This document shows positions 12,021 through 33,479 of a DNA stretch of 40,094 nucleotides, in pieces. Position 1 is the stretch's first letter; each line of letters opens with the position of its first letter. The position numbers and the translations under genes were made by a program. This DNA comes from Deltaproteobacteria bacterium RIFOXYA12_FULL_61_11 (GTDB taxonomy: Bacteria; Bdellovibrionota_F; JAHFAK01; YA12-FULL-61-11): positions 1 to 40,094 of the forward strand of contig MGSU01000150.1 of the NCBI GenBank assembly GCA_001799195.1, read 5' to 3'. Under the pieces are notes generated by a model. It was not told the DNA's origin, searched no databases, and saw only the letters and a program-made list of their open reading frames with translations.

Positions 12021-12827
12021 ATGGACCTCTCTCCCGCACAACTCGTCCTCGTCCTCAATGCGTGGCCGCCCGAACTCCTCCTGCTCCTCGAGCTGGTCTG
12101 CTGTTTCGGCGGGGTCTGCCTGATGGGCCGCCTCTTCGGCGCGGCCGGGTTGCAGGTCTACGTCTGTCTCGGCGTCATTGCCGCGAACCTGCAGGTACTC
12201 AAGGTAGTGAAATTCACCCTCTTCGAGCATCCGGTCGCGCTGGGCACGGTGGTGTTCGCCTCGACCTATCTGTGCACCGACATCCTGGCAGAATTCTATG
12301 GGCGTAAGGAAGCAAGCAAGGCAGTGTGGCTCGGCTTCGCCTCGCTCCTCGTCTTCGACCTCCTGATGCTCCTCACCCTCGGCTTCCGCCCACTGAGTCA
12401 GGCCGAAGCCCCCCCGGGACTCTCTTGGGCCCTGGGAGTCCACGATCACCTCGCCGCGCTGTTCCTCCCGGCACCGGCACTCCTCGTCGCAGGCATGACC
12501 GCGTACCTGTGCAGCCAACACCACGATGTCTGGCTCTACCAGGTCCTCCAGCGGATGACGGGTGGACGCCACCTGTGGTTGCGCAACAACCTCTCCACCA
12601 TGCTCTCGGCCCTGCTCGACAATACGATCTTCAGCGTCCTCGCTTGGGTCGTCCTGGCTCCCGAACCGGTCGGCGTCGACGCCCTGGTCTTCACCTACAT
12701 CCTCGGCACCTGGTACTTGCGCGTGCTGGTCGCCGCCCTCGACACTCCCTTCGTCTACCTGGCACGGTGGCTCTATAGTCGCCAGGCGACGGCCGGAGGA
12801 GCTCCCGAGGGAACGAGTCCCTGCTGA
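12021..12827 (+). CDS. yhhQ: Queuosine precursor transporter, YhhQ/VUT family
   Basis: The 268-residue, six- to seven-helix membrane protein matches the YhhQ/QPTR family (PF02592, formerly DUF165): early ANLQVLKVVKF, the conserved FASTYLCTDILAEFYGRKEASKAVWLGF block (loop and start of a helix), and the C-terminal half with WLRNNLSTMLSALLDNTIFSVLAW and YILGTWYLRVLVAALDTPFVYLARW. In E. coli YhhQ imports preQ0/preQ1, and homologues in salvage-type bacteria are proposed to import queuine or queuosine. The ribosome site is weak (no clear GGAG). No preQ1 riboswitch-like sequence is visible upstream. Because tgt, qng1 and a Q-mannosyltransferase lie elsewhere in the window, queuine or a Q derivative is a plausible substrate; this is inference. 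Confidence 0.92.
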   Translation: MDLSPAQLVLVLNAWPPELLLLLELVCCFGGVCLMGRLFGAAGLQVYVCLGVIAANLQVLKVVKFTLFEHPVALGTVVFASTYLCTDILAEFYGRKEASKAVWLGFASLLVFDLLMLLTLGFRPLSQAEAPPGLSWALGVHDHLAALFLPAPALLVAGMTAYLCSQHHDVWLYQVLQRMTGGRHLWLRNNLSTMLSALLDNTIFSVLAWVVLAPEPVGVDALVFTYILGTWYLRVLVAALDTPFVYLARWLYSRQATAGGAPEGTSPC

Positions 12828-13627: not shown

Positions 13628-15736
13628 ATGCGACCATGGGCGCGTCAACGCTTCCTGCAGCCACTCGCCCCGGCTACCTCACGCACCTTCCCCACGATGC
13701 CTTGCCTCGGCCTGGTCGTAGTCTTGGCTTGCTTTGCCTTGTTGGAATGGCACCATCCCTACTGGTTCCTCCAGGACGACAACCGGACCTTCTTCCTGCC
13801 CAACTTCCTCCACAACCTGCAGGCCGCGACCAGCGGAAACCTCGCCCTGTACAACTTCTTCGAACATCGCGGTACGGTCCACCTCGCGCTCGGGCAGAGC
13901 GCGGTGCTCCACCCTCTCCCCTACCTCGCCCTCTCCGCGAGCAGCGTCCTCTTCGGACATCACCTCGCGGGCATGGAGCTCCTGGCCCTCCTGCTCCTCC
14001 TCGGCACCTTCATCGGTACCTATGCCCTTGGCCGGCGTCTCGGCCTCGACCCCGCTCCCGCGACCTTCGCCGGCACGGCCATGGCTCTGTGCAGTTTCGT
14101 CGTCCAGGGCGGCGCCTCGTGGTGGGTGTTCCTCCACCTCTCGGCCTATTTCCCCGCGCTGTTGGCCCTCGACCTCGCCCATCTCCGTTCCCGGGATACC
14201 GCGAGCGGTCTCGGCGGGGTACTCCTGCGGCTGCTCGGGTTCTACTGCGGGCACTTCCAGCTCTTCCTGCTCGGGATCCTCTTCGAGGCCTTGTTCGTAG
14301 GTGGGTGGGCGGTCCTCGAATTCGGCGGCCGACGGCGAGCACCATCCGGGGCACTCCTCTCCTGGTCAACCGGGTTGGCCTTGTCCCTCCTCGGCGCAGC
14401 TCCCTTGCTCCTCCCGGCGCTGGCCCAACTCGGGGAATCTGCCTTCCGGACCGCCCCCTTGGATCCGCTGCAATGCTTTCAGCGCAGCGTCGACCTCCCC
14501 GTCCTCTGGCGGGGACTCTTCAGCCGGAACCCGGGCGACTACGGCGACTATGCCCGACTGACCTTCAGCTCCCTGGTCTACGATGGGTTGCTCCCCCCCC
14601 TGGCCACACTCGCCCTCCTCCTCGCTGTTCCTTTCCGCGCCGCACGTCCCCTCCGAGGACCGACGGGCCTCCTGCTCCTACTCGGGTTGCCCCCCTTGTT
14701 CCTCGGTCTCGCCCCGGTACTCGAACTGCTCTCGAACACCCCCCTCCTCAATCTTTTCCGCTGGCACTTCAAGAGCATCTATTTTACCTATCTGGCGCTG
14801 AACCTGCTCGCGGGCTTCGCTCTGCAGCGCTTCGGCCAGCGCCTCTCCAGACCTCGGCTCGTCTGCGTGATCGCCTTGCTCATGCTCCTCCAGACGATCG
14901 ACGTCATGAGCCTCCACCTCTCGGCCCCTCCGCGCTCCTTCAGCATCAAGGCCGAGGGCCCTCCCCCCGTGGAAGACTCCCTCGTCGAGGTTCTCGCGGG
15001 GACCCGGCTCCTCACCCTGCCCCATCTCGCCGATGCCGACTTGATCTTCCTGGATTTCAACTACCCGACCCTCCGCCGCGTGGTGCATTTCGCGGGCTAC
15101 GCGGATCCTCTGCTCGGAAAACGACAGTTCGACGGGCTGACCAGCCTGGGTGCGTCGTTCATCTCGGCTGGAGGAGAGGTACACTTCGACGACGGCGTCC
15201 TGCCCGTGGAGCTGCTCCGGTCGTGGGGTGTCTCCCGCTACCTGCTCGGCAGCGACTACCTCGGCCGCTACGGACCCGTACTCCGCGAGCACGGTCTCAC
15301 TCCTTGTATCCGCGAAGAGCGGCGCGTGGTCTTCTGCGACGGACGCGCACGACCCTTGGTGTCCTGGGAAGACGGCGGCACCGAAAGTCTCGACGAATTC
15401 ACGCTTGGTCCTGAAGGGCTCCGCTGCAGGGTGGAAACCCCGGCGCCGCGAACCCTCATACTGGCCTGGCTCCAGGACCCGCGCCTCGCGCTGCGTCTCG
15501 ATGGAAGGCTCGTTCCGACCTCGCCGGACGGACGGGGGCGGATCAGCGCCGACCTCCCCCCGGGGCAGCACGAGCTGCTCCTGCGCTTCGAAGATCCGCT
15601 GTTCGAACTCGCCCTCCGAGGTTCTCTCTCCGGCTACGCTGCCGTGTTCCTCTTGGGCCTCCTGGTCCGGCTCCTCGGGTCCCGCCGGAAAGCTGCCGGG
15701 TCCGGGAAGGACCCAAGCTCGGGGACTCTTCCATGA
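13628..15736 (+). CDS. Large multi-spanning membrane protein, YfhO/glycosyltransferase-like
   Basis: The 702-residue protein has about a dozen hydrophobic helices over the first 450 residues and a soluble C-terminal part ending in another helix (LSGYAAVFLLGLLVRLLGS). The early WFLQDDNRTFFLPNF segment after the first helix, a large periplasmic loop position with acidic residues, resembles GT-C-type glycosyltransferases and YfhO-family proteins, where the Asp-rich first loop binds the lipid-phosphate sugar donor. The match is by architecture and is moderate. Its stop overlaps the start of the downstream SGNH gene by 4 bp (ATGA), so both are translated together, suggesting a role in acylation or glycosylation of a surface glycan. 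GAGGA precedes the ATG. Confidence 0.65.
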   Translation: MRPWARQRFLQPLAPATSRTFPTMPCLGLVVVLACFALLEWHHPYWFLQDDNRTFFLPNFLHNLQAATSGNLALYNFFEHRGTVHLALGQSAVLHPLPYLALSASSVLFGHHLAGMELLALLLLLGTFIGTYALGRRLGLDPAPATFAGTAMALCSFVVQGGASWWVFLHLSAYFPALLALDLAHLRSRDTASGLGGVLLRLLGFYCGHFQLFLLGILFEALFVGGWAVLEFGGRRRAPSGALLSWSTGLALSLLGAAPLLLPALAQLGESAFRTAPLDPLQCFQRSVDLPVLWRGLFSRNPGDYGDYARLTFSSLVYDGLLPPLATLALLLAVPFRAARPLRGPTGLLLLLGLPPLFLGLAPVLELLSNTPLLNLFRWHFKSIYFTYLALNLLAGFALQRFGQRLSRPRLVCVIALLMLLQTIDVMSLHLSAPPRSFSIKAEGPPPVEDSLVEVLAGTRLLTLPHLADADLIFLDFNYPTLRRVVHFAGYADPLLGKRQFDGLTSLGASFISAGGEVHFDDGVLPVELLRSWGVSRYLLGSDYLGRYGPVLREHGLTPCIREERRVVFCDGRARPLVSWEDGGTESLDEFTLGPEGLRCRVETPAPRTLILAWLQDPRLALRLDGRLVPTSPDGRGRISADLPPGQHELLLRFEDPLFELALRGSLSGYAAVFLLGLLVRLLGSRRKAAGSGKDPSSGTLP

Positions 15737-16794
15737 AAACTTCCCTGCTCCTCAATCTCTCGCTGGCCTGCTGTTCTCTGCTCTGCGCGCTCCTCCTCGG
15801 GGAAGGGTTCCTGCGGCTGCGCTTCCTGGCCTGGCCCTTCGAGCCGGCGCCCCGGAGACAATCCCATCTGACCGGCCGAGATGCCGCGCTGGGGTGGCGC
15901 CTCCCCCGGGAACAGGGCACGAATAGCCTGGGACTGCGCAACCGGGAGCTCGCAGCGAAGAAACCGGAGGTGTTCCGGGTTCTCTTCCTCGGCGACTCGT
16001 TGCTCTGGATCGGCGATACGAGCGACGGCCGACTGCACACCCAGGTCATCGAGGAAAACCTCAACCGCGCCATGCCGACCCCGCATAGGGTCGAGGTGAT
16101 CAATGCCGGGGTCCCCGGCTATACGACCTACCAAGAGGCCGAGTTCCTCAAGGCGTACGGTCTGGCCATGGAACCCGACCTCGTCGTGGTCTGTTTCGTG
16201 CTCAACGATGTCTATCCCCGGTATCTCCACCGCCCCTCTCGCGAGGAGATGTTCCCCTTCGATCCCGCCGCGAGGCTCCACCGCTTCGACGGCACAAGAT
16301 TCCCCGGCCGCTTGTTCGCGCGAAGCTATCTGGCGCACGAAGCCGCGTATTCATTTGAAATCGTTAGGCAGTTCTTCGGATTCGCCCCCTCCTTCTCCTT
16401 CCAGCACCGCGACGATTTCTATCTGGCCTGGAAATCCCATGGTTGGGCAGAAAGTGCGAAGCTGCTCGAGGCGATGCAGCACGTACTGCACCCGACCGGC
16501 GCCCCTCTCGCCCTGGTGGTCTTCCCGATCAGGGATCAACTCGAAGCCCGGAACCTCGACCGGGACCGCGACTACGTCCTCTCTCCCCAACGCCGCCTGC
16601 GGACGCTCTGCGAACAACGAAAAATCCCCTACCACGACCTGACCGAGGCGCTCCTCGCCGGCGGAGGCCCGAGGCTCTTCGCCGATCATGTGCACCTCAC
16701 CGCCCGGGGTAATGACCTCGTCGCTGTCGAGGTGACGCGCTTCCTGTTGGAGGACACGGCGTTCCGGTTCGCGGGATGGACCAGCGGCCTATAG
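15733..16794 (+). CDS. SGNH/GDSL-type hydrolase, membrane-anchored
   Basis: The 353-residue protein begins with a membrane anchor or signal (LLNLSLACCSLLCALLL). The SGNH blocks are all visible: FLGDSLLW (Ser nucleophile, block I), NAGVPGYTTYQ (Gly block II), FVLNDVY (Asn block III) and DHVHLTARGN (Asp and His, block V). Such enzymes remove or transfer acyl groups on polysaccharides. It overlaps the upstream GT-C-like gene by 4 bp and its 3' end overlaps the convergent FGE-like gene by 6 bp. An acetyl-hydrolysing or transferring function on an exported glycan fits the context, but the substrate is unknown. Confidence 0.85.
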   Translation: MKTSLLLNLSLACCSLLCALLLGEGFLRLRFLAWPFEPAPRRQSHLTGRDAALGWRLPREQGTNSLGLRNRELAAKKPEVFRVLFLGDSLLWIGDTSDGRLHTQVIEENLNRAMPTPHRVEVINAGVPGYTTYQEAEFLKAYGLAMEPDLVVVCFVLNDVYPRYLHRPSREEMFPFDPAARLHRFDGTRFPGRLFARSYLAHEAAYSFEIVRQFFGFAPSFSFQHRDDFYLAWKSHGWAESAKLLEAMQHVLHPTGAPLALVVFPIRDQLEARNLDRDRDYVLSPQRRLRTLCEQRKIPYHDLTEALLAGGGPRLFADHVHLTARGNDLVAVEVTRFLLEDTAFRFAGWTSGL

Positions 16795-17682
16795 GGACCG
16801 GGCCACGCGGAACCCGAGGTGCTCGGAGGGTTTGTCCGGGACGAATTCCTGGCGGTACGCGGCCCGGCAATACTTTTCGTAATAGCTCCAGCACCCCCCG
16901 CGGAACTCGCGGGTAGGTCCTTCCGCGGGGCCCGAGGGATCGAACCCGGAGCCGGTGGGATATGCACCCGCCACGTCAAAGACCCACTCCCAGACATTGC
17001 CGAGCAGGTCGTAGAGACCCCAGGCATTGGGAACCTTCAGACCGACCGGATGGATCCTCCCCTCTTTGTTCCCTCCATACCAGGCGATCTCCTCGAGCTC
17101 GCCGTACCGAGGTCCGGTCGTCCCGGCCCGCGCGGCATATTCCCACTCGGCCTCCGTGGGGAGACGATAACCCGCACAGGTCTGGTCCCATCGCACGGCA
17201 GCACCATCGACCGTATAGCACCGCGGGAGATGTTCGCGAGTCGACAGGGCGTTGCAGAACCGGATCGCGTCGAACCACGTGACCGATTCGACAGGACATT
17301 CCCTCCCACAGGACGTGTTCCGGCTGGGATTCGCGCCGAACAGGTCCTGCCATTGTCCCTGGGTGACCTCTGTCGCCCCGAGCAGGAACGGTCTCCGGAG
17401 GGTCACGCGATGTTGAGTCTCGTCACCCTGTCTGCCGTCCTCTTCCGGCGGTGCCCCCATGAGGAAGGTCCCGGGTTCGATCCTCACCATCACCTGGCCG
17501 AGGCTATTCTTCCCACCCGCAGGCCAAACAGCACTCCCTCCGGCCGGCTCCTCACCCTCGGGCTTCTCAGTCCGAATGAACCAGCCCACCGCGAGCGCCA
17601 CCACGGCCACGAGCAACACCCAGGTGCCTTTTTCGATTATCGCGACCATGCGGCCCCGTTGTGATCCAAGACTTTGTGCCAT
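16789..17682 (-). CDS. FGE-sulfatase-domain protein (SUMF1-like), membrane-anchored
   Basis: The 297-residue protein has one N-terminal transmembrane anchor (WVLLVAVVALAVGWF, residues 21-35). Then comes a formylglycine-generating-enzyme-like domain: MVRIEPGTFLMG, FLLGATEVTQGQW, CPVESVTWFDAIRFCNALS, YRLPTEAEWEYAARAG, WGLYDLLGNVWEW and RGGCWSYYEKYCRAAYR. In true FGEs the active-site copper is held by two Cys in an RGGSxxCxxxxC pattern. Here a Cys sits directly after RGG and a second nine residues after RGG, but the canonical position holds Tyr. Sulfatase activation is therefore doubtful; most bacterial members of this broad family are non-catalytic or have other roles. It converges on the SGNH gene. 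Confidence 0.85.
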   Translation of the reverse strand: MAQSLGSQRGRMVAIIEKGTWVLLVAVVALAVGWFIRTEKPEGEEPAGGSAVWPAGGKNSLGQVMVRIEPGTFLMGAPPEEDGRQGDETQHRVTLRRPFLLGATEVTQGQWQDLFGANPSRNTSCGRECPVESVTWFDAIRFCNALSTREHLPRCYTVDGAAVRWDQTCAGYRLPTEAEWEYAARAGTTGPRYGELEEIAWYGGNKEGRIHPVGLKVPNAWGLYDLLGNVWEWVFDVAGAYPTGSGFDPSGPAEGPTREFRGGCWSYYEKYCRAAYRQEFVPDKPSEHLGFRVARSL

Positions 17683-17890: not shown

Positions 17891-19117
17891 ATGCATCGCT
17901 TGTTCCCTCTCCTGACCATTGCCCTGCTCGGCTGCATGAGCGAGTATGAACTCCAGGTCGACGAGCAGGCCAAGCAGCAGGACCTCGCTACGGCCATGCA
18001 CGACGACGCCATCGACCGGAGCGGCCCGGTGGCGGGGCTCTTCCCCCCCCTGCAACTGCCGCCACCCGGGACCTCCTGGTTCCCTCCCGAGCAGCCCGGC
18101 GCGATCCGGCCGACCCTCGGCAGCGGCCAGGCCTCGCCGGGAAACGTCCCCGTTACTTCGACCGGGTCGGAGACCGCCATCGTTCCGGCCACCGTGCCCA
18201 CTCCCGACCTGCCCACCGGTATCGAGCAAGGTTGCCCAGCCCTTCCCCAAGACCTGCTCATCGTGGATCTGAAGTCCGGCTGGTGGTCAGGCGACGGCGG
18301 TGAATTCTTCGAGCACATCCTCTCCGGCATCGGCGATCCTTGTCTCGGCAGAATCACCATCGACTACCATCACGTGACCAACGCCTACCACGCTACCCTT
18401 CGCACCGGGGGTTCGAGCGGCAGTTCCGAGTTGCGCTTCTACGAAGGCGAGCCGCGCTTCGGCAAGGTCTTCGGGGCCACGGATTGGGATACCTACGAAC
18501 AGATCTGGATCCTCTCGGGGTCCGAGGCCGATCCTCTCGATCTGCCCGTCCAGGGCGACTTCTTCCAAAAACTCGCCCAACACCTCGTCGCCTCGGACGC
18601 GGCCGTGTTCCTCGGTGCGGGTTTCGGCTCGATCACCCACAGCAATGCCCTCGCCGAAGCCTTGGACCTCGGGACGATCTTCGACACGAGAGAGAGGGAG
18701 GGAGGCTTACTCTCACCTCAGTTGGGAGGCGTGGAGGTTGTGGATTATCTTGAACTCGTCGCGCAACACCCGATGTTCCAAGAGGTCACCTCGGTGGTCG
18801 AACGGGTCCGCATGGCCGGGGGAATGATCGAGCTAGAGGCCAATCCCTCCAATGGGTTCGAGGGCTTCCTGAACGGCCTGATGGCTCCGCCCAGGGTCGT
18901 GGCCGGCAGCGACCGGATCATCAACGGCAGGGATTTCGAGGCACTCGCGAAGAACGCGACAGGCGATACGGTCATCGCGGTCGGGAAAGCCTCGTTGGCC
19001 CGCCGCATCGTCCTCGACTCGGGTTTACAACGCTTCTACGCGGTGGCCGGGCAAAACGGCGCGGGCACGCTGGCCTATCTGCGCAACATGGTGCTCTATC
19101 TCTCCGGGGTTCGCTGA
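17891..19117 (+). CDS. Lipoprotein of unknown function
   Basis: The 408-residue product has a lipoprotein signal (LFPLLTIALLGC, lipobox ALLGC). A Pro/Ser/Gly-rich linker of roughly 90 residues follows, then a globular domain from about residue 120 with LLIVDLKSGWWSGDGGEF, FLGAGFGSITHSNAL and ALAKNATGDTVIAVG. The alternation of hydrophobic strands with glycine turns is of an alpha/beta type, and no family is recognised. The start is supported by GAGGTGATCGATG. It converges with and overlaps the Q-mannosyltransferase gene by 22 bp. The 208-bp gap upstream holds an AT-rich stretch (TTATTTAACAGATTG) that may contain its promoter. Confidence 0.65.
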   Translation: MHRLFPLLTIALLGCMSEYELQVDEQAKQQDLATAMHDDAIDRSGPVAGLFPPLQLPPPGTSWFPPEQPGAIRPTLGSGQASPGNVPVTSTGSETAIVPATVPTPDLPTGIEQGCPALPQDLLIVDLKSGWWSGDGGEFFEHILSGIGDPCLGRITIDYHHVTNAYHATLRTGGSSGSSELRFYEGEPRFGKVFGATDWDTYEQIWILSGSEADPLDLPVQGDFFQKLAQHLVASDAAVFLGAGFGSITHSNALAEALDLGTIFDTREREGGLLSPQLGGVEVVDYLELVAQHPMFQEVTSVVERVRMAGGMIELEANPSNGFEGFLNGLMAPPRVVAGSDRIINGRDFEALAKNATGDTVIAVGKASLARRIVLDSGLQRFYAVAGQNGAGTLAYLRNMVLYLSGVR

Positions 19118-20250
19118 ACTCGAGGAGCCGCAGAGGTCAGGTCGTCGACCAACCGATCGTAGTCCGTCGCCAGCCTCGGCCAGGCATACTTGCCCATGGC
19201 CTCGCTGAGTCTCCCGGTCACGTCGGCCTCCGGACCTCGCTCCACGAGCGCTGCCAGTCGTTCGACAAAAGCCCCCTCGGGATACAGCACCGCCTCGTGC
19301 AGCTCCGGCGGCACGAGCTCCGGATACACCAGCCGCCTCGGCAGGAGGGGATGGCAGCCGGCGGCGAGCGCCTCGACGACGCTCAGCCCGAAGAAGTCCT
19401 GTCGCGAGGTCACGGGCAGGATATCGCTCTGGTGCAACAAGGTCAGGTAGGCCTCGCGCGGCAGCGGACCGAAGGCCACCAGCCTCTCTCCGAGTAGGTC
19501 CTGGGCCCGGTCGAAGGGGGTTGCACATTCTCCTCTGCGCTCCCCGGCGAGGGCAACGCGGAAGCGCAGGCCGCGACGCACGAGTTCGACCAGGGCGGAG
19601 AAGAACTCCTCGGGTCCCTTGTCGTGCTCCCAGCGATGGTTCCAGAGGAGCAGGGGTCCCTCGGGATGGGGGACCCTCCGGGTCGCAAGGACAGTCAAAC
19701 GGGCATACTCCACGCCCACGGGCAATACAGCGCAGCGAGGCGGCAACCCTCGCAGCTCTGCAAGCCCGCGGTGATCCGGCAACCGTCGCAAGAGCGTCTC
19801 CATACCCTCGAAGAAGCTGTCGCGGTTGTAGGCCGAGTTGAAGGCAACGCGATCGGCGGCCAACGCGGTGGTGAAATTGCGAAAAGCATAGCCCGCAGCG
19901 TCGGCGTCCCCCTCGGCCCCTCTCCTGCTCGAAACCGGGTAGGCGCACTGGTTCTCGTGGAAATAGGCCAGAACCGGCACCTTGGGCCAAGCACGGACAA
20001 GGCCGAGGAAGGTCGCGAGGTCGAGCAGGTCGCTCGCCACGAGCAGGTCCGGCGGTGCTCCTCTTCGCGCCAATCCGGCCAGCGTCACCGCCGCCCCGTG
20101 CATGCGCCACTTCCAGTGCCGGGCGGACAACCCGAGGACCTCGATCCTATGCCTGCTCGCGCCGCGCCAACCCTCGGCCCAAGCCGCATGGGCACCTCCG
20201 AGCCAGGGCTCGAGCAACAAAATCCTCCGGCTGTCCTCCCCCTCGCTCAT
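19096..20250 (-). CDS. tRNA-queuosine alpha-mannosyltransferase family protein (QTMAN/GTDC1-like)
   Basis: The 384-residue glycosyltransferase matches the family known from human QTMAN (GTDC1), which transfers mannose from GDP-mannose to the cyclopentenediol of queuosine in tRNA-Asp. The opening LEPWLGGAHAAW, the segment HWKWRMHG, SDLLDLATF, YFHENQCAYPV, FNSAYNRDSFF and PDHRG all align by eye with the family's N-terminal DUF3524 domain. The C-terminal half is GT4-like, with LWNHRWEHDKGP and SRQDFFGLSVVEALAAG, the donor-binding region. The ATG at 20250 was chosen over a much longer open frame because it starts the conserved domain and overlaps the GH38 stop by 4 bp (ATGA). It should act in the cytosol on charged or uncharged tRNA. 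Specificity for Q over another acceptor is inferred from family and context. Confidence 0.85.
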   Translation of the reverse strand: MSEGEDSRRILLLEPWLGGAHAAWAEGWRGASRHRIEVLGLSARHWKWRMHGAAVTLAGLARRGAPPDLLVASDLLDLATFLGLVRAWPKVPVLAYFHENQCAYPVSSRRGAEGDADAAGYAFRNFTTALAADRVAFNSAYNRDSFFEGMETLLRRLPDHRGLAELRGLPPRCAVLPVGVEYARLTVLATRRVPHPEGPLLLWNHRWEHDKGPEEFFSALVELVRRGLRFRVALAGERRGECATPFDRAQDLLGERLVAFGPLPREAYLTLLHQSDILPVTSRQDFFGLSVVEALAAGCHPLLPRRLVYPELVPPELHEAVLYPEGAFVERLAALVERGPEADVTGRLSEAMGKYAWPRLATDYDRLVDDLTSAAPRVQRTPER

Positions 20251-23200
20251 GCGCTGAAAGTACAGTGTACGGTCTTCACCTCGAAGGGCCGGAGACCGAT
20301 CCGGAGGCTTTGCGGCGTCACCAGGGAGACCGTAGAGCCCTGGCGTGGCCGTTCCAAGAGGTCGACCTCCGCTGCCGAACCGAGCGGTAGGCCGCATCGG
20401 AGCGACGCCTCGACGGTGCGGCCGTGGCATTCCCACATACGCACGATGATACCCTCTCCCTGTTCCGGCTTCTTCACCGTCTCGACGCAGAGATGCGGGC
20501 AGTCGGTGGAGAACAGCGCCGGCGGAACGGTAGCGTGCCCCCCCCCCGAGCCCGCAGGAATCCGTTCGACCAACGGCGGGTGGGCCAGCTCGTAAGCCCG
20601 GCGAACCACCTCGCCCTGGACCAGGTCGCCCTGGTGGGGCAGCAGGGCGTAGGTGAAACGGTGCCGCCCGAGGTCTGCGCTCTGGTCGGGTATACGTGGG
20701 CTGCGTAACAGGGCCAGGTCGAGCACGCCGTCCTCCAGGCGGTGTCCGTACTTGCCGTCGTTGAGCAGAGCGAGGCCGAGTTCCGGGGTCGAGCAGTCCA
20801 CCCAGCGCTGCGCCGGGACTTCGAACCTGGCCCACTCCCACGAGGTGTTGGTGTGGCCGGGCCGCTGCAGGTGGCCGAACTGGATCGAGGCATGGAAGAT
20901 GCCGTGCCGCAAGGCGGACGGGAAGGAGACGCGCAGCATGCGGTGCTCCTCGCGCCACTCCACCAGGGTGACGAAGTCCAGTCGCGGGCTGTTCGCACCG
21001 AGTCGGACCTCCTGGACCACCTCGGACCTGCCGATGGCCAGACGCTGTTCCAGGGCGATGCGCAGGGGCCCCTTTTCGAGCACGCGGCGCGACACGAGGC
21101 GCGGCCGCTCCGGCGGCCGGTCCAAATAGAAGCGGTCGACCTCCCAGGCGTCGTAGACGTTGGGCCGGTCCTCATACAGGGCCAAGGCATTGCCGCCGAG
21201 CCCCGGGGCGAGCAGCTCGCGGCCGCTGCCGCGCTCCACGAGGCTGGTCAACTCACCGTGTTCACCGAAGCGGGCGCACAGCAAGGAGTTCTCGAGCAGG
21301 TCGGGTCCTACGGTCAGGTGTGGATCAGGCTCGAAGGGTCGCGGCGTCAGAGGCTCCACGGTCTGGGCAGGCAGCCCCACCACAACGAGCAGGTCACCGC
21401 GCTCCGGTTCGACCGCGCTTTCCGGCAGGCGCTGGCCAGCACCCGCGGCGGTCCAGGTCTGGGTCTGTTCCGGAGGCACGCTCACGGCCAGGAGTTCGCG
21501 TCGGTCCCAGGCCAGGGGGTTGTAGACGACCAGACAGGGTTCAACCCCTGAGGTCGAACTCGTACCGACCGCCTCGAGGCCCTCGGTTGCCAGCCGTTCC
21601 AGCGAGGACAGAGTCTCCCGGTGGGCCGCCTCGGCCTCCTCATAGACCCGGCGGATCGAAGAACCGGGCAGGATGTCGTGGAACTGGTGGAACAGGATGG
21701 TACGCCACGCCTGGTCGAGTTCCCGGCTCGGATAGGGCAGACCTACCACCTGTTCGGCCAGGAGGCGCAGACCCTCGACCGAGCGGGCAAGGGTCTCGGC
21801 GGCGAGGTTGTCGGCCTTGGTGCGGGCTTGCGTGGTCAAGACCCCGCGGTGCATCTCGAGGTACAGTTCGCCGCTCCACAGAGGCAGTTCGGCGCGGTGC
21901 TGAGCCAAACGGCCGAGCATGGCCTCGGCTCCACCCAGGGAGAGGCGCGGCAAGCCCTCGGTCGAGGCGGCGCGCAGGGCCCGTTCGAGCTCCAGGCGAT
22001 CCGGTCCGCCGCCGCCGTCGCCCAGGCCGAACAGGACCAGGGCCTCGTCGAGCAGGGCCTTCTGCCGATAGTTGCGCTCGGCGAAACGCAGGTCGGCCGG
22101 ACGGTTCTCGCCGTTGTAGTTCTCCTCGGGCGTGCAGTGCGCCAGCACCTCGGAGCCGTCCAGCCCGCGCCAACGGAAGGTGTGGTGGGGGAAAACATTG
22201 ACCTGCGACCAGCTCAGCTTGTTGGTGAGGAAATGTTCCACCCCGGCGAGCACGAGGAGCTGCGGCAGCGCGGCCGAGAAGCCGAAGGTGTCGGGCAACC
22301 ATAGCGTCGTCGCCTCGCGGCCGAAGCGCTCCCGGAAGCAGCGTTTGCCGTAGAGGAGTTGGCGGCACAGCGATTCGCCGCCGACGAGATTCGTGTCCAT
22401 CTCCACGTAGGTGCAGCCCTGCAGCTCCCAGCGGCCTTCCTGCACGGCCCGGTGTACCCGGGCGTAGAGGTCGGGCCGCAGCTCGGCCAGTCGGTCGTAG
22501 AGCCAGGTCTGGCTCATGCCGAAACGGTGCTCGGGGTACCGCTCGAGCAGGCTGAGCTGGGTGCTGACCGTGCGCACGAGCTTCCGTTCGGTCTCCCGCA
22601 CCGGCCAGAGCCAGGCAAGATCGAGGTGAGCGTGCCCGACCGCGGTCAAGCGCAGCGTGGTCGGCACGGCCGGCTTGGCAAGCTCGGCGGCCAGCGCTAT
22701 GCGGGCCGCGGCGACTTCGTCGGTTCTCAGCTCGCCGGCCAGACCGGCGGCCCGGACCAGGGCCGCACGGACGGTCGAACGCTTCAGGCTGTCCCAGGGA
22801 AGGTCGAGCATCAGGTCGCGCAGGAACTCCAGGTCGCAGTAGAGCTGGAACACATCCTCGCGCCAGGCGCCCAGTTCGCAGCGCAATACGCGGCCGAGGC
22901 GGGGGTCGTCCCAGTCCGGCTCCTCGGGCGGGGCGATCGGGTTGGCTCCGGTCTCGCACAGCAGGGTGATCGTGCCGTCAAGGGCGAAAAGACCGCGGAG
23001 CGGTAGCACGTCGCGCAACGAGACGCGCCGGTCCGGAATGCGGATTTCGGTGGTCAGCCCCTGCAACGGCCGACCGTCCGCGGTCAAGACCAGGGTCTCA
23101 CCGCCCAGGTCGAGGCGCAGGGCCGGGTCACGGCTGCGCTGCTGCTCCGGAACTATAGCGGTCAAGCGGAAGACGGCGCAGTCCCACTTCCCACCCCAGC

Positions 23201-23399
23201 GTTGCCCGCGGACGAAAGGAACGAGCGGCTCGCCGAGGGCCTCGAACAGGGGTCGCGGCTCGGCCGAGACCGTCCCCTCCAGCACGGCCTCGCCCCACGG
23301 CTCGAAGCGGTGCTCCCAGCAGCGGTCGAGCAGACGATCGATACGTACTTCCTGTTGCCGGTCGAAGGCCCCGGTCACGTCCTTGGTCGGTTTGCTCAT
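20247..23399 (-). CDS. GH38 alpha-mannosidase, cytosolic Ams1/MAN2C1 type
   Basis: The 1050-residue protein lacks a signal peptide. The catalytic domain has HAHLDLAWLWPVRET (zinc ligands His258 and Asp260), the nucleophile motif WLPDTFGFS (Asp370) with NKLSW after it, and HQFHDILPGSS for a further zinc His. An N-terminal beta domain and a long C-terminal sandwich give the length usual for the cytosolic Ams1/MAN2C1 class, which remove alpha-linked mannose. The ATG at 23399 was chosen over an upstream GTG/ATG because AGGAGCGGGG precedes it and the extra 20 residues would be encoded by a repeat that also occurs at 24518-24578. Its TGA overlaps the Q-mannosyltransferase ATG, so the two products should be made in fixed ratio. 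The natural substrate is not known; mannosyl-queuosine is a hypothesis. Confidence 0.9.
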   Translation of the reverse strand: MSKPTKDVTGAFDRQQEVRIDRLLDRCWEHRFEPWGEAVLEGTVSAEPRPLFEALGEPLVPFVRGQRWGGKWDCAVFRLTAIVPEQQRSRDPALRLDLGGETLVLTADGRPLQGLTTEIRIPDRRVSLRDVLPLRGLFALDGTITLLCETGANPIAPPEEPDWDDPRLGRVLRCELGAWREDVFQLYCDLEFLRDLMLDLPWDSLKRSTVRAALVRAAGLAGELRTDEVAAARIALAAELAKPAVPTTLRLTAVGHAHLDLAWLWPVRETERKLVRTVSTQLSLLERYPEHRFGMSQTWLYDRLAELRPDLYARVHRAVQEGRWELQGCTYVEMDTNLVGGESLCRQLLYGKRCFRERFGREATTLWLPDTFGFSAALPQLLVLAGVEHFLTNKLSWSQVNVFPHHTFRWRGLDGSEVLAHCTPEENYNGENRPADLRFAERNYRQKALLDEALVLFGLGDGGGGPDRLELERALRAASTEGLPRLSLGGAEAMLGRLAQHRAELPLWSGELYLEMHRGVLTTQARTKADNLAAETLARSVEGLRLLAEQVVGLPYPSRELDQAWRTILFHQFHDILPGSSIRRVYEEAEAAHRETLSSLERLATEGLEAVGTSSTSGVEPCLVVYNPLAWDRRELLAVSVPPEQTQTWTAAGAGQRLPESAVEPERGDLLVVVGLPAQTVEPLTPRPFEPDPHLTVGPDLLENSLLCARFGEHGELTSLVERGSGRELLAPGLGGNALALYEDRPNVYDAWEVDRFYLDRPPERPRLVSRRVLEKGPLRIALEQRLAIGRSEVVQEVRLGANSPRLDFVTLVEWREEHRMLRVSFPSALRHGIFHASIQFGHLQRPGHTNTSWEWARFEVPAQRWVDCSTPELGLALLNDGKYGHRLEDGVLDLALLRSPRIPDQSADLGRHRFTYALLPHQGDLVQGEVVRRAYELAHPPLVERIPAGSGGGHATVPPALFSTDCPHLCVETVKKPEQGEGIIVRMWECHGRTVEASLRCGLPLGSAAEVDLLERPRQGSTVSLVTPQSLRIGLRPFEVKTVHCTFSA

Positions 23400-23417: not shown

Positions 23418-23478
23418 CCACGGACCTGTGATGTAGCAAAGAGCAAGGGGGAAGGGCAATCACTCGTTACCGCTGCGG
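23418..23478. repeat. 61-bp direct repeat, copy A
   Basis: This segment and 24518-24578 share 61 bp with one mismatch (C versus T at 23444/24544). The similarity extends with gaps to a GCCCCGCTCCTGT block that, on the minus strand, is the AGGAGCGGGG ribosome site of the GH38 gene. The copy probably covers the promoter and leader of the mannosidase gene: on the minus strand TTGCCC and TACATC are separated by 18 bp and could be -35/-10 boxes (weak). Confidence 0.85.
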
Positions 23479-23641: not shown

Positions 23642-23848
23642 TCAGGGTTGGTTCAGGGTCTTCTGGTGCTCCATGGCCAAGCGGCTCAGCTCGACTCCGC
23701 TCAGACCCTGGAACAGGGACTCCCTCCAACGCGTATAATCGAAGCGTTCTCGTTGGATCAGGGCAATGAAGCGTTCGGTTTCCACCAGCCCGAGGTTGCG
23801 GCTGAGGATTTCGAGGCCCAATACTTTTATTTCGGTGTCCGTCTTCAA
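23642..23848 (-). CDS. Small antitoxin of a PIN toxin-antitoxin pair
   Basis: The 68-residue product reads IKVLGLEILSRNLGLVETERFIALI, then RERFDYTRWRESLFQGLSGVELSRLAM. It resembles the small helical proteins that accompany PIN-domain toxins of this type, in which 'GLVxxERFIxLIxRExFDYTxWR' is conserved. It begins 4 bp inside the end of the PIN gene (overlap 23845-23848), so it is translated after the toxin; toxin-first order is less usual. It probably neutralises the PIN ribonuclease by binding its active site. GC content here is lower than in the flanking GH38 gene, which fits mobile origin. Confidence 0.7.
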   Translation of the reverse strand: MKTDTEIKVLGLEILSRNLGLVETERFIALIQRERFDYTRWRESLFQGLSGVELSRLAMEHQKTLNQP

Positions 23849-24285
23849 GCCAAACCCTCCAGGTCCATGAGAAAATTGATGGGATTGATAAGGGTAATCG
23901 AGGTTATACGTGCTGCTTTCCCGAGGATACTCCTATCCACGGTCAGGAAATATTGACAGCTCGAGGCAAGGGCGCAGGCTACGTGCAACGCATCCAGAGG
24001 TTTGAGGCCGAGGTTCGTCAACTGGTCAAGCCTGGTGAGCGTCTGTTCCGTTTCATCGATAAAGGTATCTGCCAACTCCTTCCAGCGTTGTATTTCTAGC
24101 CGACGTTCCAAGAATGGGTTGGCTTGGTTCTCGTAATCGAGAATATAGGACCAGGCTAATGCGAGTTGTCCGGTCTTGATCTTTTCCTGGATTGCTAACT
24201 TTGCTTCGGTTTCGAGTCGTATCGTTAGCATGGTTTGGTCGTCGAAAGGCCGGTTGAAACAGCAATTATCGAGGTACACCTTCAT
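23845..24285 (-). CDS. PIN-domain ribonuclease toxin
   Basis: The 146-residue protein begins MKVYLDNCCFNRPFDD, the first strand and Asp (residue 6) of a PIN domain with the CCFNRPFDDQ motif typical of one VapC-like group. It continues with TEAKLAIQEKI, SYILDYENQANPFLERR (acidic residues of the active site), LKPLDALHVACALAS with the third Asp, and FLTVDRSIL with the fourth. These four acidic positions bind metal for RNA cleavage. The small gene downstream, overlapping by 4 bp, is its likely antitoxin. The pair sits between two copies of a 61-bp repeat in a patch of low GC. Confidence 0.85.
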   Translation of the reverse strand: MKVYLDNCCFNRPFDDQTMLTIRLETEAKLAIQEKIKTGQLALAWSYILDYENQANPFLERRLEIQRWKELADTFIDETEQTLTRLDQLTNLGLKPLDALHVACALASSCQYFLTVDRSILGKAARITSITLINPINFLMDLEGLA

Positions 24286-24517: not shown

Positions 24518-24578
24518 CCACGGACCTGTGATGTAGCAAAGAGTAAGGGGGAAGGGCAATCACTCGTTACCGCTGCGG
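24518..24578. repeat. 61-bp direct repeat, copy B
   Basis: This copy is identical to 23418-23478 except for one base. The pair is 1.1 kb apart and encloses the toxin-antitoxin genes and the short remnant. The arrangement could have arisen by duplication of the mannosidase leader when the module inserted, or by recombination between leaders of two genes. Confidence 0.85.
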
Positions 24579-27944: not shown

Positions 27945-29093
27945 ATGATCTCCTTCCGCGTGACCGCGCGTTCCAGCCGCTCCGCCGCCCGCCTGGGCGT
28001 GCTCTCGACCCCGCACGGCGATATCGAGACCCCGGCCTTCGTACCCGTGGCCACGCGCGCCGCGGTCAAGGCCATCTCGCTGCAACAAGCCGCCGAGGCT
28101 GGCTGCCAACTGCTGATCTGCAACACCTTCCATTTGCACCTGACTCCCGGCGAGGACCTCGTCGCCGCGGCCGGCGGCCTGCACTCCTTCATGGGCTGGC
28201 AGCGGCCGCTGATGACCGACAGCGGCGGGTACCAGGTCTTCAGCCTCGGTTTCGGCAGGGACCACGACGTGGGGAAACTCCGCGGCGTGTTCCCCGGCAA
28301 GGAGCAGCAGGCCACCATCAAACCCGGGTCTCAGCCGAACCACGTGAAGATCACCGACGACGGAGTGTGGTTCCGCTCGCCGCGCGACGGCAGCAAGCAT
28401 TTCCTCGGTCCGGCTGAGAGCCTGGCCATGCAGCGCAAACTCGGGGCCGACATCGTCTTCGCCTTCGACGAGTGTACCGCGCCGCTGACCACCCCGGCCT
28501 ATCTCGAACTCTCGCTGCGCCGCACCCATGCCTGGGCCGAACGTTGTCTCGAACTGCACGACGGAGAGCAGGCCCTCTACGGCATCGTCCAGGGTTCCCA
28601 CTATCGCGAGCTGCGGCAGCATAGCGCCCGCTTCATCGGCGGCCTGCCCTTCGCCGGTTTCGGCATCGGTGGGGACCTCGGTCAGGACAAGCAGGACATG
28701 CACCAGGTGCTGGAATGGACGGTCCCGCTCTTGCCCGAAGAGCGACCGCGCCACCTCTTGGGTATCGGCCATCCCGAGGACTTCGACGAGATCGTCCGCC
28801 GCGGCGTGGACACCTTCGACTGCATCGTTCCCACCCTGCACGCCAGGCACGGCATCGCGTTCACCGCCGAGGGCCGGCTCAACCTGCGCAACCGGCGGTT
28901 CCTCACCGACCCGGCTCCGCTCGACCCGGCCTGCTCCTGCCCAACGTGCCGGTATGCCAGCCGTCGCTACCTCGCCCACCTGGTCCGGCTGGAGGAGATC
29001 GGAGCCATGGCCGCCCTTACCGTCCATAATCTCCACTACTGCAACCGTCTGGCCGCATCGCTGCGCGAGGCCATCGCAAAGGGAAGCCTATGA
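27945..29093 (+). CDS. tgt: tRNA-guanine transglycosylase, non-canonical base pocket
   Basis: The 382-residue enzyme exchanges guanine-34 of tRNAs with GUN anticodons for preQ1 (bacteria) or queuine (eukaryotes and some bacteria). TGT features are clear: MTDSGGYQVF (Asp92), FAFDECTAP (Asp175), YGIVQG (Gln216), nucleophile Asp292 in FDCIVPT, and zinc ligands Cys330, Cys332, Cys335 and His361 (CSCPTC...VHN). Two features are unusual. There is an insertion of about 25 residues after the FSL motif (103-130), and the base-contacting loop reads GGDLG (242-246) where canonical bacterial enzymes have GGLAVGE. The FDECT-type sequence places it in a clade containing TGTs thought to use queuine. The 4-bp overlap with qng1 supports a queuine-using role. 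The ribosome site is only GAG at the right spacing. Confidence 0.93.
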   Translation: MISFRVTARSSRSAARLGVLSTPHGDIETPAFVPVATRAAVKAISLQQAAEAGCQLLICNTFHLHLTPGEDLVAAAGGLHSFMGWQRPLMTDSGGYQVFSLGFGRDHDVGKLRGVFPGKEQQATIKPGSQPNHVKITDDGVWFRSPRDGSKHFLGPAESLAMQRKLGADIVFAFDECTAPLTTPAYLELSLRRTHAWAERCLELHDGEQALYGIVQGSHYRELRQHSARFIGGLPFAGFGIGGDLGQDKQDMHQVLEWTVPLLPEERPRHLLGIGHPEDFDEIVRRGVDTFDCIVPTLHARHGIAFTAEGRLNLRNRRFLTDPAPLDPACSCPTCRYASRRYLAHLVRLEEIGAMAALTVHNLHYCNRLAASLREAIAKGSL

Positions 29094-30058
29094 CCAACAA
29101 CCCGGTCCTCACCTCCACGCTCCCCGTCGTCGAGGCCGCGGTCCACGTCACCCTCCAGCGCAAGGCCCTCACTTCCTTGGCCCTCCGTTGGTTGCGGGAG
29201 CAGAAACTTCCCCCGCCCTGGCCGGACGAGCACCACCTCGGACCTGCCGACGCCGAGACCACGGCCCGCTATATCCTGCTGCTCGACACGCTCAACTTCT
29301 GCTTCTGGCCCCTGCCGGGCACGTGCAAGTGGACCGTCGCCACGCCGCAAGGGAACCTCGGCGGGTACTTCGGCCTCAGCCAGGCCCTGGCCCGCTGGTT
29401 CCGTGAACGGCCGGAGAGGACGACCGCAAAGGCCCTCGCCAACGTGCCCGAGGAGGAATTCGAGGCGGTCCTCGCCGGCGAGGGGAGCTTGCAGTTCTTG
29501 CCCGAGCGCCGGGCCTTCACGCGAGCCCTGGGCGACGTTCTGGTTGAGCGGTACGGCGGCAGCGCCCTGCGCTTGCTTGCCGCGGCCAAGGGCAGCACCG
29601 CGAAGCTCGTCGAACTGGTCGTGGCCGAGCTTCCCGGCTTCGACGACAGGGCGAGGTATGCCGGAGAGGTCGTGCTCCTGCGCAAGCGAGCCCAGATCCT
29701 CTGCGCCGATCTCCACGGCGCTTTCCACGGGACCGGTCCCGGTCGCTTCGACGACCTCGCTTACCTCACCGCCTTTGCCGACTACAAGCTGCCCCAACTC
29801 CTCGAACGCATCGGGGTACTGCGCTACTCGCCCGAGCTGCGGGCAAGCCTCGCCGCTGAGCAACTCCTGCCTGCGGGGTCTGCCCTGGAAGTCGAACTGC
29901 GCGCGGCCACGGTCTGGGCTGTGGAGTTGCTGCGCCGGGAACTCGAGGCCCGCGGTCGGGCCTTCCTACCCCTGGAACTCGACTGGATTCTGTGGAACGA
30001 CGCCAAGCTGCTGCCACCCGGCCTGCCGTACCACCGCACCCCGACCGTGTTCTACTGA
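29090..30058 (+). CDS. qng1: Queuosine-5'-phosphate N-glycosylase (queuosine salvage protein, DUF2419)
   Basis: The 322-residue protein shows the whole motif set of the Q-salvage family (PF10343), which hydrolyses queuosine-5'-phosphate to queuine and ribose-5-phosphate. Motifs are LDTLNFCFWP (65-74), WTV and GGYFGLSQAL (81-100), RKRAQILCADL (198-208), LTAFADYKLPQLL (226-238), EVELRA (267-272), DWILWNDAK (298-306) and PYHRTPTVFY at the C-terminus. It is full length with no signal. Its ATG overlaps the TGT stop by 4 bp, so free queuine may be passed directly to tRNA insertion. This protein is common in eukaryotes and rarer in bacteria. Its presence is the strongest evidence for Q salvage rather than de novo synthesis. 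Confidence 0.93.
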   Translation: MTNNPVLTSTLPVVEAAVHVTLQRKALTSLALRWLREQKLPPPWPDEHHLGPADAETTARYILLLDTLNFCFWPLPGTCKWTVATPQGNLGGYFGLSQALARWFRERPERTTAKALANVPEEEFEAVLAGEGSLQFLPERRAFTRALGDVLVERYGGSALRLLAAAKGSTAKLVELVVAELPGFDDRARYAGEVVLLRKRAQILCADLHGAFHGTGPGRFDDLAYLTAFADYKLPQLLERIGVLRYSPELRASLAAEQLLPAGSALEVELRAATVWAVELLRRELEARGRAFLPLELDWILWNDAKLLPPGLPYHRTPTVFY

Positions 30059-32241: not shown

Positions 32242-32289
32242 CCTCCCCCTACCCCATCCTAGCTCCGAAAAGAGAGGAGTCAGGGGAGG
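32242..32289 (-). terminator. Nested hairpin downstream of the FGE-like lipoprotein
   Basis: CCTCCCC (32242-32248) and GGGGAGG (32283-32289) flank an inner CTCC..GGAG stem. It lies at and beyond the stop of the minus-strand gene. There is no T-run, so termination is not certain. Confidence 0.3.
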
Positions 32290-33407
32290 TAGGGACGGGT
32301 TCGGGCCAAGCGGAAACCGAGATGATGGTTGCGCTCGCGCGGCGCTTCCCCCTGACGTCCGGCACAGGTACAACCTCCGGCAAGACTGTACCAGCTCCCC
32401 CCGCGAACCACGCGGACCTCTCCCTTCGATGGGCCGGAGGGATCGACCGCGGGCTCGACGGGCAACTCCTCCAGCCAATCTTGGGTCCATTCCCCGACAT
32501 TGCCGAGCAGGTCGAGGAACCCCCAGGCATTTGGCCGTTTGGTTCCCACCCGCTGCGGACCGCAGCGCTCGGACGGGTACTGCTTGCCGGGCCAATCGGT
32601 GCAATCCACCCCCTCGGGATAGAGCACCTCGCTATTGCCGCCATACCAGGCAACGAGGTCGAGTTCCGGCGAATGGTTCTCTCCCAGAGTGGTCATCGGC
32701 CCGCTGTACAGCGTGGTGACCGTCCCTGCTCTGGCAGCGTATTCCCACTCGGCTTCGGTGGGCAACCGGTACCCGTCACACGACGCATCGAAGACCGCCT
32801 CGCCCTCTCCGAGGGCATAACACCGCGCCAGGCCGCGGAGCTCGGAGAGGCGGTTGCAGTAGGCCACCGCCTCGAACCACGACACCTGCTCGACCGGGCA
32901 ATCCAGACCGCAAGGCCGGAAATGGCTGGGATGCTCTCCGGTGACGGCAGCCCATTGGCCCTGGGTCACCTCGTACTTGCCAAGGAAGAACGACTTGCTC
33001 AGACGTACCTCGTGCTGGGGAGCTTCGATCGGATAGCTCTCCCCCGTGCCCTCGAGCTGCGGTTCTCCCATCAGGAAACGCCCGGCTTCGACGCGCAGCA
33101 GTTCTGGTTCGGCAGGGGTCAGCGCGATTGGAGCCAGCGTGAGCGTCTTCTTGCGAGGGAGCGAGAGACTCAAGCGCGAGGGTTCGAGGTAAGGTCCAGC
33201 GTGGACCCTCAGCACGAGCTCCCCGGGGCGATACTCGAGGGTGTACCGTCCCCGATCATCGGTGAGGGTGGAGAAGGTACTCCCCTCGACTTCAACCATC
33301 GCGCCGGCGAGCGGCTTCCCGACCGCATCGACCACCTCGCCGACCAGCCGCTGCCGGGTACAGCCAACGAGCCCCAGAACCAATCCGAAAACAGCGATAC
33401 CTCTCAA
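32280..33407 (-). CDS. Lipoprotein with carboxypeptidase-regulatory-like and FGE-sulfatase domains
   Basis: The protein is taken from a TTG at 33407 (MRGIAVFGLVLGLVGC), which gives an ideal lipoprotein signal with GAAGG before it; the open frame extends 24 residues further up to another TTG. After the lipobox Cys is a CarboxypepD_reg-like beta sandwich (VVDAVGKPLAGAMVEVEG...TDDRGRYTLEY). Then follows an FGE-like domain: RVEAGRFLMG, SFFLGKYEVTQGQW, CPVEQVSWFEAVAYCNRLS, YRLPTEAEWEYAARAG, WGFLDLLGNVGEW and RGGSWYSLAGGCTC. The canonical first copper-binding Cys is Ser (RGGSWYS). It is a probable non-catalytic surface protein, the second of its type here. It follows the next gene upstream with only 70 bp. 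Confidence 0.75.
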   Translation of the reverse strand: MRGIAVFGLVLGLVGCTRQRLVGEVVDAVGKPLAGAMVEVEGSTFSTLTDDRGRYTLEYRPGELVLRVHAGPYLEPSRLSLSLPRKKTLTLAPIALTPAEPELLRVEAGRFLMGEPQLEGTGESYPIEAPQHEVRLSKSFFLGKYEVTQGQWAAVTGEHPSHFRPCGLDCPVEQVSWFEAVAYCNRLSELRGLARCYALGEGEAVFDASCDGYRLPTEAEWEYAARAGTVTTLYSGPMTTLGENHSPELDLVAWYGGNSEVLYPEGVDCTDWPGKQYPSERCGPQRVGTKRPNAWGFLDLLGNVGEWTQDWLEELPVEPAVDPSGPSKGEVRVVRGGSWYSLAGGCTCAGRQGEAPRERNHHLGFRLARTRPYLP

Positions 33408-33479
33408 GGCAGCCTTCGGGGAACAGAAAAAACCCGTGGAAGACCGGGAAGGCTCGAGAACAGAGGCAGGACGGAACAA

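Follow-up and report, generated by a model that had tools for sequence, protein, structure and literature searches.

The cytosolic class III of the GH38 alpha-mannosidases includes human MAN2C1, and its known Ams1/MAN2C1-type members trim free oligosaccharides. A mannose-adding enzyme is described for the tRNA nucleoside queuosine (Q), namely vertebrate QTMAN (GTDC1), a tRNA-queuosine alpha-mannosyltransferase that combines the N-terminal family PF12038 with a GT4 domain. In its natural product, mannosyl-Q, the mannose is alpha-linked to the allylic hydroxyl (PMC8654956). Work from the 1980s led to the inference that mannose and galactose must be taken off Q in animal cells before its base can be used again; Gunduz and Katze found free mannosyl-Q to be low relative to tRNA, and in vivo removal of the sugars was deduced from this (both reviewed in PMC4425180). 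According to the same review, published in 2015, eubacteria make no sugar-modified Q (PMC4425180). Direct bacterial salvage of the base queuine is known from Chlamydia trachomatis, which uses a QPTR transporter and a queuine-accepting Tgt, and published Tgts of this type carry a shortened GG[LS][AS]G loop (PMC11570991).

The window analysed here is a 40,094-nucleotide stretch of a Deltaproteobacteria contig (MGSU01000150.1), in which a predicted mannosidase gene and a QTMAN-family gene lie together on the minus strand. The upstream gene (20247..23399) encodes a class III (Ams1/MAN2C1-like) GH38 alpha-mannosidase of 1050 aa, and the downstream gene (19096..20250) a QTMAN-family GT-B/GT4 glycosyltransferase of 384 aa, a predicted tRNA-queuosine alpha-mannosyltransferase. 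Both reading frames are intact and overlap by four bases, the GH38 stop and the QTMAN start sharing the ATGA at 20247..20250 (TCAT on the plus strand), just as the first-pass annotation had read them. Inspection of the upstream sequence revealed no obvious Shine-Dalgarno motif before the QTMAN ATG, which makes translational coupling of the two genes plausible. However, the overlap in itself says little about shared function, because two further same-strand pairs among the genes called in the window also overlap by ATGA, one of them encoding a membrane protein and an SGNH-like protein (13628-15736 / 15733-16794). Four-base overlaps of this kind are ordinary gene packing and do not on their own demonstrate a common role.

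The family assignments that had been made for the two proteins were both upheld. The GH38 product matches all four domains in Pfam, i.e. Glyco_hydro_38N (1.1e-75), Alpha-mann_mid, 38C and 38C2, and retains the catalytic motifs GHAHLD, WLPDTFG and QFHDILPGS, which cover the metal site and the nucleophile. A PDB search returned Ams1 of fission yeast (S. pombe), an enzyme of the cytosolic class III type, as the best solved relative (6e-156), ahead of the next alpha-mannosidase chain at 1.9e-127. The class III assignment follows the four-domain architecture together with an Ams1-like extended N-terminus, and no obvious signal peptide is present. The protein thus shares its complete set of domains and catalytic motifs with yeast Ams1 and animal MAN2C1; unlike these, it sits on a long branch of the class III tree and its gene overlaps that of a QTMAN. 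Four of the five rows in its tree group come from QTMAN-positive genomes, a grouping that is confounded by taxonomy and by the length of the branch. A Q-specific GH38 clade was considered and rejected, the clustering with QTMAN-positive genomes being weak (11 of 500 shuffles were as low) and taxonomically confounded, and the group also including a QTMAN-free genome.

Similarly, the QTMAN product matches QTMAN_N (PF12038; 2.1e-51) and a C-terminal GT4 domain (5.2e-10), the architecture of the vertebrate enzyme. In an alignment of six bacterial sequences it keeps every residue on which the five distant homologues agree, HENQ and WNHRW among them, and the family motif WKWRM and the conserved donor-site glutamate are likewise present. 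A search by sequence found no solved relative. In contrast to vertebrate GTDC1, the protein is bacterial and encoded together with a Q-salvage set, and its activity is predicted from the sequence.

The Q-salvage setting, which had also been part of the earlier reading, is borne out by the remainder of the contig and by the genome. On the plus strand of the same contig lie genes for a transporter of the Vut_1/YhhQ (QPTR, COG1738) queuosine-precursor family (12021..12827; PF02592, 3.6e-45), a bacterial Tgt with a shortened substrate loop (27945..29093; TIGR00430, 1.3e-126) and a member of the Qng1 (Q_salvage, DUF2419) queuosine nucleosidase family (29090..30058; PF10343, 4.1e-72), the last with a PDB match to 7uk3/7u07 (DUF2419) at 2e-76. 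The tgt and qng1 genes overlap by ATGA, and they adjoin in four of 31 other Qng1 loci with 1.5-kb flanks. QueA was not found in the source genome, which is 87% complete, and for QueC a single sub-threshold partial match was obtained in a search that gave strong matches in positive genomes. Since both are missing, the organism, which carries QTMAN, probably obtains queuine by salvage. The QPTR-family transporter, a Tgt pocket loop of shortened length and Qng1, with QueA and QueC absent, are features in common with direct queuine salvage in bacteria; relative to the route of C. trachomatis, the present genome has Qng1 and QTMAN in addition, and the residues of its loop differ. When aligned to the Tgt of Z. 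mobilis, this loop reads GG-DLG and lacks one residue relative to the preQ1-type GGLAVG; it thereby has the length of the published queuine-type loop but other residues. In Chloroflexota, Tgts encoded beside qng1 (loci L144 and L121) have the loop IGGSLG. Three other genomes (G147, G235 and G275) were found to combine QTMAN with Qng1, all of them lacking QueA and a strong QueC match, and all four genomes with this combination are without QueA and retain the queuine route. As a separate observation, the Chloroflexota genome G147 has a cluster of qng1, tgt and a gene for a CbiQ-type ECF transporter (L216, 6183-10610), which suggests that an ECF system carries a Q precursor into that organism.

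The first-pass annotation had further proposed a mannosidase dedicated to mannosyl-Q, and had looked to adjacency of the two genes across bacteria as a check. A genome scan yielded at least 588 QTMAN loci, the best 80 of which were taken with flanks of up to 10 kb; combined with loci from whole-genome searches, and excluding the source genome, these gave 117 QTMAN loci from many phyla, including a phylum with QTMAN in 40 of 82 genomes. Upstream sequence of at least 500 nt was available for 113 of them, and for 104 the flanks were this long in both directions. Within the available flanks, GH38 was found beside QTMAN at none of the 117 loci. The search was sensitive enough for this purpose, as it recognised 49 GH38 loci down to approximately 21% identity. 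Moreover, 36 of 56 QTMAN-bearing genomes gave no GH38 match at all, and of the three further QTMAN-plus-Qng1 genomes, G235 and G275 yielded no GH38 at E values up to 1e-20. In the third, G147, the contig that encodes a class III GH38 is not that of QTMAN, and the GH38 gene immediately follows four genes for an Opp-type ABC importer, a context usual for the breakdown of glycans. GH38 is, conversely, frequent among Qng1 genomes that lack QTMAN: in 72 Chloroflexota genomes with Qng1, a GH38 match was present in 46 and QTMAN in just three. In combination, the missing adjacency and the absence of GH38 from most QTMAN genomes, including two of the three with Qng1, speak against a conserved GH38-QTMAN module, and conservation lends no support to a mannosidase reserved for mannosyl-Q. 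No close relatives were found in plasmids or viral contigs, and the single other genome compared from the phylum of the source organism is without QTMAN.

A conserved gene neighbourhood for QTMAN in general was likewise rejected, on the basis of the 117 loci and of 152 adjacent reading frames scanned against Pfam. The neighbours depend on the lineage and are mostly housekeeping genes, as judged from the 25 commonest families, a listing that rare neighbours may escape. Frequent recurrence was seen solely for an alpha/beta hydrolase, whose gene accounts for 13 of the 73 frames lying directly downstream of QTMAN, for the most part in Saprospiraceae (loci L010, L012, L018, L028, L036, L042, L045 and others); it is a possible functional partner of QTMAN.

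The account that we lean towards is that the GH38 enzyme handles other alpha-mannosides and that its pairing with QTMAN is fortuitous. The gene families, the intact motifs, the overlap, the lack of QueA and QueC and the unconserved pairing are read from the sequence, and the catalytic activities, the tRNA target and the co-translation are what we infer. The organism is probably unable to make queuosine and would import a Q precursor via the YhhQ/QPTR transporter; Qng1 would free queuine, a queuine-accepting Tgt would insert it into tRNA, and QTMAN would then probably move mannose from GDP-mannose onto Q34 of tRNA-Asp. GH38, predicted to be a cytosolic class III exo-alpha-mannosidase, would most likely meet other alpha-mannosides as its everyday substrates, such as imported oligomannosides or glycan fragments, and its presence on one mRNA with QTMAN would reflect a gene order that is specific to the lineage and probably fortuitous. 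The absence of the pairing from all other bacteria examined fits such a chance origin. Counted against it are the position of this GH38 gene, which adjoins a mannosyltransferase and not a sugar importer, and, with the taxonomic confounding and long branch noted above, the four of five rows from QTMAN-positive genomes in its tree group. Approximately 0.02 GH38 neighbours of QTMAN would be expected by chance, a rough estimate from 45 GH38 matches in 57 genomes with about 4,300 genes assumed for each; the locus, however, was picked for its striking appearance, and the independent sample gives 0/117.

It is somewhat unlikely that GH38 instead serves salvage by stripping the alpha-mannose from mannosyl-QMP or mannosyl-Q. 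These would be released by degradation of tRNA-Asp or enter with foreign RNA, and Qng1 would be blocked until demannosylation allowed it to act and queuine to return to Tgt. The mannosyl-Q linkage has the right anomer for GH38 (PMC8654956), and animal-cell extracts salvaged 5'-QMP and not mannosyl-5'-QMP (PMC4425180). A literature search, which covered open-access papers and left subscription papers mostly outside, found no described enzyme for the removal of Q sugars. In addition, the galactose of tRNA-borne galQ can be cleaved off by a commercial beta-galactosidase (PMC12313893), which indicates that Q34 glycosides are reachable by glycosidases. For these reasons a cytosolic alpha-mannosidase whose gene is predicted to share a transcript with QTMAN, in a probable Q auxotroph, makes a sensible candidate demannosylase; the overlap of the two genes and a genome equipped with Qng1, Tgt and a QPTR-type transporter and devoid of QueA and QueC are in keeping with this. 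Against it stand the unconserved pairing, the two QTMAN- and Qng1-bearing genomes without GH38, the importer-linked GH38 of the third, and the fact that the gene studied here is joined to QTMAN and not to tgt-qng1. The reachability of Q34 glycosides bears equally on the proposal that GH38 is an eraser acting on intact tRNA-Asp, where it would take the mannose off Q34 and make mannosyl-Q a reversible, regulated mark. Although overlapping genes for the addition and removal of mannose would suit such a switch, two enzymes made together would oppose each other, nothing in the GH38 sequence hints at RNA binding and the pairing is, again, not conserved; we regard regulated erasure as very improbable. 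The two proteins could also belong to a glycan pathway, the PF12038 protein being a GT4 glycosyltransferase of that pathway and not a tRNA enzyme. Its GT domain is indeed generic GT4, and the literature searched yielded no bacterial QTMAN whose activity had been demonstrated. Co-occurrence with QueA does not discriminate here and proves no function for QTMAN, since QueA occurs at similar frequency in genomes without QTMAN (34/40) and in those with it (51/58). However, the strong QTMAN_N match and conserved family motifs, the queuine route kept by all four QueA-less genomes that combine QTMAN with Qng1, and the lack of recognised glycan-synthesis genes both beside QTMAN here and among the families recurring beside it elsewhere make a glycan role improbable. 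The fortuitous pairing of a general alpha-mannosidase with a tRNA-directed QTMAN is retained as the preferred explanation.

The distribution of the family bears on sugar-modified Q beyond this locus. QTMAN-family genes were detected in six of 98 genomes sampled across phyla, the source genome included, and are found in many bacterial phyla, reaching about half of the genomes in the phylum of 82 genomes noted above. Culturable carriers include Geomonas, Geothermobacter and Phaeodactylibacter. This wide spread predicts mannosyl-Q in bacterial tRNA, contrary to the view expressed in the 2015 review (PMC4425180). The locus also places a candidate family, the class III cytosolic GH38 enzymes with human MAN2C1, beside the writer QTMAN in a probable Q auxotroph, and the question of demannosylation therefore becomes testable with purified enzymes. 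It is a tentative proposal, and one which we consider rather doubtful, that class III GH38 supplies the demannosylase missing from queuosine salvage and that the eukaryotic relatives MAN2C1 and Ams1 could act likewise in animals.

Two minor features of the window may be recorded. It encodes two FGE-sulfatase (formylglycine-generating-enzyme-like) proteins, at 16789-17682 and 32280-33479, the latter judged solely by its resemblance to the former, and a Pfam scan recognised no sulfatase near either gene. Just upstream of GH38, a 61-nt direct repeat, 98% identical between its copies, occurs at 23418-23478 and 24518-24578, and between the copies lies a low-GC (49%) ORF at 23845-24285 with a weak PIN-domain match. 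The arrangement resembles the insertion of a cassette with duplication of the region upstream of GH38.
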